Assembly: GCF_004766045.1 (NCBI RefSeq)
Contig: NZ_SPQQ01000002.1
Span: forward strand, 62,001-126,000
DNA: 64,000 bases
Source of the DNA: Desulfosporosinus fructosivorans
GTDB taxonomy: Bacteria > Bacillota > Desulfitobacteriia > Desulfitobacteriales > Desulfitobacteriaceae
Direction: 5' to 3'
Within the stretch, counting starts at the first letter, position 1. Each line of letters opens with the position of its first letter. The notes beneath the pieces are model-generated. The model made no database searches and was not told the origin of the DNA. It worked only from the letters and a program-made list of their open reading frames with translations. Positions 17,336-19,114 of this stretch are shown here, piece by piece. The position numbers and the translations under genes were made by a program.

Positions 17336-17941
17336 CTAGTTGAATGAGTTAACTTTTTTAAAATTGCAATAATAGCATATTATTCCAGTAATAAATGCAG
17401 CCAAAATTTTGATTAGTAGATCTGTCGAGGTGTCTTCAAGACCTCCTTTTACCATACCCGATTTAAATAAGTAATCTCCTATAAACTCAAACATCTCCCA
17501 CAAAGTACCTAAGGCGATCGAAAAGCTAAAGGCAAATATTATTGCAAATAAGGTAAACCTCTGCTCGGTAGTATCCTGTTCCTTTCTGAAAATCCCTTTT
17601 ATTAAATATAAGGCAATTATAAGCGCATAGCTACCAAATATAGCGTGAAGAAGTAAATCCCACCACCAAAATATTTGATAGAATTTCCGAATTTCCCCCA
17701 TGTATTGTGCCAAAAAAACAAATACTACCGTTGTTGATTGAAAACTAGGAGGTAGCACAAAGTTCTTTAGGTTCGCAGAATATGTAATTAGAAAAGGAAG
17801 ACTAAGACATACCATAGCGAGTAGCGTCAAGGATACATTCTTCCATTGTCTTGAAGCAATACTCAAAAAAGCTGTAATTATGAGAATTGTCTCAAACAAC
17901 ATCGCTATTCCAACTGAGAGCTTACTGTTTTGATTATTCAT
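17336..17941 (-). CDS. DUF2238/YjdF-like membrane protein
   Basis: About 201 residues with five to six hydrophobic helices. The signatures WWDLLLHAIFGSYALI and ALGTLWEMFEFIGD, ending in a DTSTDLL segment, match the YjdF/DUF2238 family of unknown function. The ATG at 17941 (MNNQNSKLSVGI) is chosen because the frame upstream of it only overlaps the GlmL-like gene and reads as non-protein. An AAGGGG element lies 12 or so bases upstream. It starts 17 bases after the GlmL-like stop and is likely cotranscribed. Confidence 0.75.
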   Translation of the reverse strand: MNNQNSKLSVGIAMLFETILIITAFLSIASRQWKNVSLTLLAMVCLSLPFLITYSANLKNFVLPPSFQSTTVVFVFLAQYMGEIRKFYQIFWWWDLLLHAIFGSYALIIALYLIKGIFRKEQDTTEQRFTLFAIIFAFSFSIALGTLWEMFEFIGDYLFKSGMVKGGLEDTSTDLLIKILAAFITGIICYYCNFKKVNSFN

Positions 17942-17958
17942 TAAACGAACTACCCCTT

Positions 17959-18936
17959 CTAATTCTCTACTCCAAGTGATTCCCGCAACAGCTGCCAGGC
18001 CCCTAGTCGAAAGGTCGTTGTTAATACTCCCATGGATGCCATAATACAATCTCGATCTAACAACACAGCTATGCCTTCTTGAGGAAACATAGCATCGGTC
18101 TTCTTCATAATGCTTTGCTTCATTATTTCGAGACCATTTGGTAGCTGAGTGAGTGCCGCACCAGTTCCAACAATCCACCGAATCCCCTTTAAATCCCGAC
18201 CCTCAAGACTCGCAACATTGCCACTCACCCAATTATTTAATCGTCCACTATGCCTTTCTAGAGCAGTTGTTATTGCCGCATCAGTTAACTCCGCGCTAAG
18301 AGCCACCTCTTCGGGCGTCTCAGGCCTTAATTTTAATAATTTTTTCCAACCTTGGCCATGACGCTCCTTGATGTTATTTTCGCCTATTAATTTCACTAAA
18401 GTCAAGGCATTGCTAAAAATACCAAGGTCTTCTTCAATCGTTTGATACGCTATTGGCTCCAACTTCAGGTTTGATTTTGATTTCTGATGTATATCATTCC
18501 GTGAAGTTATCGAGTATACCGCCGTCGATGCCCCTTCAACAGCAATAACTAGGACATCTCCTACTTCTTCATAAATGAGTTGGGCAGCTTGCGTGATTGC
18601 TCCTGGAGTTGTCAGAATCCTATCCTGGACAAAATGCCATATTTCATGAATGCCCAAAGAATCTGGAGAATATTGAACATTGCCCTTCTGAACAGCGCCT
18701 TGCGATGATAGCGAACTCGTCGCATAAAAAGGAATTTTGCCTAAAGAACTTACCGGTCCGATATTTTTTTCTAATGCAGTAACCGCAAATCGCAATCCAA
18801 TTCCGATATCCCCATTGCGTAATGTTGTCCGAGAAATTCCCTGCCCAAGTAACAGGGGATTTTCCGCATCTAAATCACCAAAGGCATTCACTACCGTCAT
18901 CTCACTTCCAATTTCGGCGACTAAAACCTTTTGCAT
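17959..18936 (-). CDS. GlmL/MutL-like ASKHA protein, internally shortened
   Basis: 325 residues. Both ends align with GlmL (MutL), the putative reactivating ATPase of glutamate mutase. The N-terminus has VLVAEIGSEMTVVNAFGD, NPLLLGQG and IGIGLRFAVTALEKNIG. The C-terminal half has TTPGAITQAAQLIYEEVGD, RWIVGTGAALT, and DRDCIMASMGVL. The roughly 140 residues that normally follow the ATSSAAGGL motif are missing: here ATSSLSS runs almost directly into the TPGA segment. The usual DIGGATTD loop reads AVEGASTAV, losing the acidic residues. Loss of ATPase function is likely. The ATG at 18936 has GAGGGAG upstream; an upstream TTG/ATG extension to 19026 is unlikely. No mutase gene is nearby. Confidence 0.75.
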   Translation of the reverse strand: MQKVLVAEIGSEMTVVNAFGDLDAENPLLLGQGISRTTLRNGDIGIGLRFAVTALEKNIGPVSSLGKIPFYATSSLSSQGAVQKGNVQYSPDSLGIHEIWHFVQDRILTTPGAITQAAQLIYEEVGDVLVIAVEGASTAVYSITSRNDIHQKSKSNLKLEPIAYQTIEEDLGIFSNALTLVKLIGENNIKERHGQGWKKLLKLRPETPEEVALSAELTDAAITTALERHSGRLNNWVSGNVASLEGRDLKGIRWIVGTGAALTQLPNGLEIMKQSIMKKTDAMFPQEGIAVLLDRDCIMASMGVLTTTFRLGAWQLLRESLGVEN

Positions 18937-19114
18937 AAGTTTACTCCCTCTCTTTGACAATATCTTAGTATTATCGTTCCCTGAAAGAAGAAAAGTTTGC
19001 AGAGGAATTACTAAATCCTCCTCCACCTACTTATCTACACTCAGCGGAGGGGCACATTAGCTGTAACACTTATATCCTGTCGTTCATAAACTGCCCAGAG
19101 GTGGTGAAACGACA

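Follow-up and report, generated by a model that had tools for sequence, protein, structure and literature searches.

The window analysed here, a 64,000-nucleotide stretch of the Desulfosporosinus fructosivorans genome, carries on its minus strand a gene for a shortened protein of 325 residues (positions 17959 to 18936). This gene is a relocated paralogue of the Or-4 family that has been kept under purifying selection. We favour, at a probability of roughly 0.55, the reading that the paralogue has been reused in the forespore as a nucleotide-independent remnant of an ASKHA protein. The fuller statement we place just short of even odds: within one genus, an accessory ATPase of a B12 enzyme would have turned into a nucleotide-independent spore protein by truncation of its ASKHA domain, loss of the ATP site and gain of a forespore promoter, and would now form a new pair of forespore genes with a membrane protein that fits no known family. 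An earlier note on this DNA had described a GlmL/MutL-like protein with its core removed; the promoter and the developmental context are new here.

The open reading frame runs without stops over 325 codons, from an ATG at 18936 to a stop codon ending at 17959. It is preceded by a GAGG-type ribosome-binding site, AGAGGGAG (18944 to 18951, minus strand), which lies 7 nt 5' of the ATG and at the same position in relatives. The Pfam MutL profile (PF13941) matches the protein with an E-value of 1.3e-49 (169.7 bits). In a whole-genome search, this match is split into an N-terminal piece covering profile positions 1−65 and a C-terminal piece covering positions 209−449, so that about 143 model positions remain without a match, and alignment with a 453-residue Or-4 protein of the same genus gives a net loss of 128 residues. 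The two ends match GlmL/MutL, and the central ~125−145 residues are absent. The shortening, the intact frame and the good ribosome site thus all stand as the earlier note had described them.

GlmL had been proposed as the identity of the protein. Homology to GlmL holds at both ends, but the closest family is Or-4: among the NCBIfam models, Or-4 (NF040744) comes ahead of GlmL with an E-value of 3e-70 versus 6e-30, and it is the top family by E-value for all 13 short forms described below. As Or-4 scores far better, GlmL is ruled out as the parent. The protein from the window stays below the curated cut-offs of both models, with 237.1 bits against 600 for Or-4 and 104.4 bits against 475 for GlmL (NF040745). 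There is no adjacent glutamate mutase, and the neighbourhood holds no B12 mutase of any kind, as had been noted before. A whole-genome profile search located two full-length paralogues elsewhere in the genome of the window, and searches of the literature brought up no publication on either Or-4 or the short gene.

Alignment with full-length Or-4 places the join at around residues 76−91 (SSQGAVQKGNVQYSPD; 18663 to 18711, minus strand), where about 125 parent residues are missing. The central part had been reported as missing after the motif ATSSAAGGL; the loss itself is confirmed, but the protein reads ATSSLSSQGAV, and AGGL itself belongs to the lost part. Judged by the order of predicted strands, the lost ~125 residues would correspond to the second half of ASKHA domain I. 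An AlphaFold model computed from nine sequences reached moderate confidence (pLDDT 64.9, pTM 0.66) and contains the initial strands and helix of domain I, plus the expected domain II strands and helices. Its best Foldseek matches are ASKHA proteins, namely HgdC-type activators, EutJ and DnaK, with E-values of ~1e-7 to 1e-5 and TM-scores of 0.3−0.5. A sequence search found no solved structure of the GlmL type.

The alignment identifies the motifs EIGSTTT, DVGGATTDV and GTGGALTRLP in full Or-4. The STTT run of the phosphate-1 motif is altered in all 13 short forms (to SEM, NET, NES, DDT and others), and none of them keeps the second glycine of GTGG. The phosphate-2 loop is likewise altered in 13 of 13, with a key residue lost in 10; the D-G-TD pattern of this loop is kept in three genomes only (G013, G017 and G028). 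In the protein from the window, the DIGGATTD-type loop reads AVEGASTAV (18516 to 18542, minus strand), exactly as claimed, and corresponds to the phosphate-2 loop DVGGATTDV of full Or-4. Because the phosphate-1, phosphate-2 and adenosine motifs are degraded, nucleotide use has probably been lost, and the short protein most likely works without ATP. The nucleotide independence suggested in the earlier note is thereby supported at the level of sequence.

A search for the same shortened form in related genomes, which had been suggested as a check, found it in 13 of 30 Desulfosporosinus genomes (the window's own, G000, and 12 others with orthologous short forms), in every case away from an ornithine operon. 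It was not found in other genera of the class. The short forms measure 325, 315, ~299, 298, ~290 and 254 residues, and one form of 382 residues keeps a remnant of the middle that aligns poorly. In the shortest of them (G003; L055, 9449 to 10210), part of domain II is missing as well and the phosphate-2 loop has become KLEEESITV, yet the GTG strand and C-terminal helix are kept and the promoter ranks 1−2. Full forms of 449−463 residues occur in two genomes of the genus (G004 and G009) and in other genera. Where their neighbours were read, by eye from the sequences, they were ord, ortA, ortB, oraS, oraE, a racemase and an arginase. A search for an OAM_dimer gene of OraE size found none in the 13 short-form genomes, and the sole OAM_dimer match in G000 lies in a 270-residue frame, KamE-like in size. 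In G023, an OAM_dimer domain (G023:C87:6750-6980) sits in an OraE-sized frame of 798 residues, and neither a full nor a short Or-4 was found in this genome.

Upstream of the short gene lies a −10 element of forespore type (sigma-F/G-like), GGGAACGATAATA (18969 to 18981, minus strand), which is the sole match to GGGNASKATAA in the 64 kb, against 0.58 expected. A −35-like element, GCAAA (18996 to 19000, minus strand), is separated from it by a 14-nt spacer, as in most of the small acid-soluble protein (SASP) promoters of the genus that were used for training. A block GGG-N-A-(C/G)-(G/T)-ATA is found ~45 bp before the ATG in 13 of 13 species, with the rest of the spacer variable, and in most of these it stands 14 bp past a pentamer beginning with G (GCAAA, GCAAG, GGGTA or GCGTA). 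The SASP genes of the genus carry GTATA-N14-GG(A/T)TA(A/G)(G/T)ATAAT. In C. difficile, sigma-F promoters are distinguished by a G ahead of the −10, and apart from this the motifs of sigma-F and sigma-G resemble each other (PMC3789822).

The upstream regions of spoIIR and gpr did not match the consensus pattern, so the promoter matrix was built on SASP genes only, with 14 sites for training; by eye, spoIIR reads GTTTA-N15-GGACAGGCTT. Ranks were taken within loci of 11−20 kb, each with 31,000−39,700 positions. The short-gene site ranks 1−2 in seven of the 13 species (G003, G006, G007, G011, G018, G019 and G022), 4−8 in G013, G027 and G028, and 23 of 39,728 in the species of the window, while G016 and G017 score poorly. 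The upstream regions of the full Or-4 genes rank 104−784, and none of them has the short-gene promoter. Compared with 307 neighbouring genes, the short-gene sites score higher with p = 9e-8, or p = 2.7e-5 when one member is taken per close trio. After wider training that included divergent SASP sites, the seven best remained at rank 1−2 and most others dropped; in the species of the window, another upstream position then outscores the site.

Most of the genomes listed, including G000, have two sigma factors of the sigma-B/F/G type above the cut-off, and the next sigma match is a frame of ~396 residues, SigA-like in size, so that no sigma-B was seen. Two such factors are consistent with SigF and SigG only. 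Taken across the genus, the promoters are good evidence that the short gene would be expressed in the forespore, and for the species of the window they are suggestive of the same. The GATAAT hexamer could in principle serve a housekeeping sigma factor instead.

The gene starting 17 nt after the short gene encodes a membrane protein of 201 residues with six predicted helices (17336 to 17941, minus strand). It directly follows the short gene in 10 of the 13 short-form genomes, is absent in G003, G013 and G028, and persists in G001 and G004, where the short gene is missing. It is likely an operon partner of the short gene, and not an obligatory one. The downstream partner had earlier been called DUF2238-like: a membrane protein of ~200 residues does adjoin the short gene, but the DUF2238 identity is unsupported by Pfam, with no match in eight members at E-values up to 1. 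No Pfam family was found for this protein at all, and its predicted model has a pLDDT of 58, a low confidence that does not allow a search by fold. Upstream of its start, the membrane-protein frame continues without a stop across the 3' portion of the short gene to a GTG codon (17942 to 18178, minus strand), and automatic callers may predict an overlapping gene of 280 residues; relatives favour the start at 17941. On the other side, an NlpC/P60 endopeptidase with a peptidoglycan-binding domain (L049, 8623 to 9294, and its orthologues) is encoded divergently upstream in 11 genomes, the one of the window not being among them.

That the membrane protein is tightly paired with the short gene in 10 of 13 genomes, and that a cell-wall gene lies divergently upstream in 11, would also suit a maintained role outside the spore; the short protein could, for instance, regulate metabolism or the envelope jointly with the membrane protein, with transcription by a housekeeping or other sigma factor. 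The weak promoter match in G000, G016 and G017 points the same way. However, the GGG-N-A-N-N-ATA element is present in 13 of 13, the match to the SASP promoter is far better than at the upstreams of neighbouring genes, and no good sigma-A −35 is seen by eye. We consider such a role unlikely, if the least unlikely of the alternatives to forespore reuse.

To place the short gene among its relatives, we turn to the phylogeny and the locus. In a rooted tree of the shared columns, the 13 short forms make up one clade (100/100), which is sister to the full Or-4 proteins of G004 and G009 (91/84) and lies inside Or-4. The short-gene locus is unrelated to the ornithine operons; its usual order in most species is a divergent NlpC/P60 gene, the short gene, the ~200-residue membrane protein, an aminotransferase, an amidohydrolase and a DUF3786 protein. 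As 28 of the 30 genomes have the amidohydrolase, the locus is open to inspection where the short gene is missing. In G015, the last 26 codons of the short gene alone remain. In G001, the membrane protein stands behind a promoter-like element and the short gene is absent. In G004, the ornithine operon includes a full Or-4, and a relic survives at the short-gene locus: the promoter and the initial four codons, with a fragment coding for LEKEIGPVG immediately ahead of the membrane-protein gene. Its ancestor therefore had two copies, and the short-gene locus is that of a relocated paralogue, neither an operon leftover nor a fresh deletion. A recent deletion at a full-length locus, which the earlier note had named beforehand as speaking against its reading, is rejected, since none of the relatives searched has a full-length gene there and the genes flanking the ornithine operons in G004 and G009 are different. 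Two or more losses of the short gene seem to have occurred, given the relics in G004 and G015, with G001 probably a further case; the gene is therefore dispensable, which counts against the favoured reading. In the genome of the window, the amidohydrolase (L090; G000:C22:32805-33959) is ~46 kb away from the gene pair, so the conserved neighbourhood is broken up there.

Pairwise dN/dS among the short forms is 0.19−0.50, and the short gene is kept under purifying selection. Full Or-4 has lower values (0.08−0.12), most neighbour genes have 0.02−0.3, and the membrane-protein neighbour is similarly raised (0.17−0.31). By segment, constraint is strong in residues 289−325 (0.11) and in residues 252−273 around RWIVGTG (0.13), followed by residues 106−127 (0.17), with 0.62 in the variable stretch 233−251. 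All 13 short-form frames are intact with 0 stops, where neutral drift would be expected to leave ~4 stops in the frame at 0.1 substitutions per site and ~9 at 0.3. The gene had been judged to be maintained rather than decaying, with an absence of purifying selection named as the contrary sign, and the dN/dS values together with the open frames bear that judgement out.

Several of these observations could nevertheless be accommodated by slow decay, in which an Or-4 copy left after loss of the ornithine operon would be shrinking by in-frame deletions. The lengths step down through 453, 382, 325, 315, ~297 and 254 residues, dN/dS is above that of full Or-4, and there are relics in G004 and G015 and an absence in G001. 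Against this, the 13 frames are open at a dS of ~0.5−1.5, where neutral frames would hold many stops, and some segments are under strong constraint (0.11−0.13). Furthermore, the promoter and the ribosome site are conserved, and G004 indicates a separate copy instead of an operon leftover. Decay is somewhat less probable again than a role outside the spore, and pure decay is disfavoured by the intact frames and dN/dS.

Least probable is continued service to a different B12 enzyme (glutamate mutase or lysine 5,6-aminomutase, for example), with the short protein as a cut-down factor for its reactivation or assembly. This would fit the descent from a mutase accessory family and the other full-length GlmL-family genes in the genomes, but no mutase gene lies nearby, full-length GlmL paralogues are already there for other mutases, the ATP motifs needed by a reactivase of the DdrA/EutA kind are degraded, and a KamE-like match occurs in only one of the 13 short-form genomes, on which ground KamE/lysine aminomutase was rejected as the new partner.

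Under the preferred reading of reuse in the forespore, a copy of Or-4 moved to a separate locus in an ancestor within Desulfosporosinus, shed the second half of ASKHA domain I along with its ATP-binding motifs, and acquired a promoter that in sequence resembles those of forespore genes. The short protein may then serve as a non-enzymatic binding or scaffold protein in the forespore, via its conserved GTG strand and C-terminal helix, often acting together with the membrane protein encoded next. If true, this would be a worked example of how a metabolic helper driven by ATP can give up its ATPase and half a domain as it enters a developmental programme, with intermediates and relics of the change still visible in sister species. 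It would show the binding surface of the GlmL/Or-4 fold (the C-terminal helix and the GTG strand) in a poorly studied reactivase-like family, and would give these environmentally important sulfate reducers a candidate pair of forespore genes that is specific to the genus.

Among known systems, Or-4 is the nearest, as the top family, with conserved N-terminal strands, GTG strand and C-terminal helix and with a sister-clade position in the tree. The short form differs from it in having 128 residues less, a score of 237 versus 600 bits, a place outside the ornithine operon, degraded phosphate loops and its own forespore-like promoter, in genomes without OraE. GlmL/MutL (NF040745, PF13941) shares homology across both ends but is more distant (104 versus 475 bits), and the short form has neither an adjacent mutase nor the core. 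For the predicted fold, Foldseek gives matches to HgdC-type activators (4eht) and EutJ (3h1q) at E-values of ~1e-7 to 1e-6, with 3e-7 going together with a TM-score of ~0.45. EutA and DdrA are ASKHA reactivases; compared with ASKHA activators and reactivases, the short form is without half of domain I and does not keep the ATP motifs, and the TM-scores are only 0.4−0.5. To our knowledge, no known forespore gene belongs to the Or-4/GlmL family, and the candidate membership of the short gene in the forespore sigma-F/sigma-G regulon is read from its promoter sequence. The likeness to that regulon, for example to the SASP genes, consists of the G-initial pentamer, the N14 spacer and GG-N-N-A-N-N-ATAAT, and the G run ahead of the −10 is shared with the sigma-F promoters of C. 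difficile (PMC3789822).
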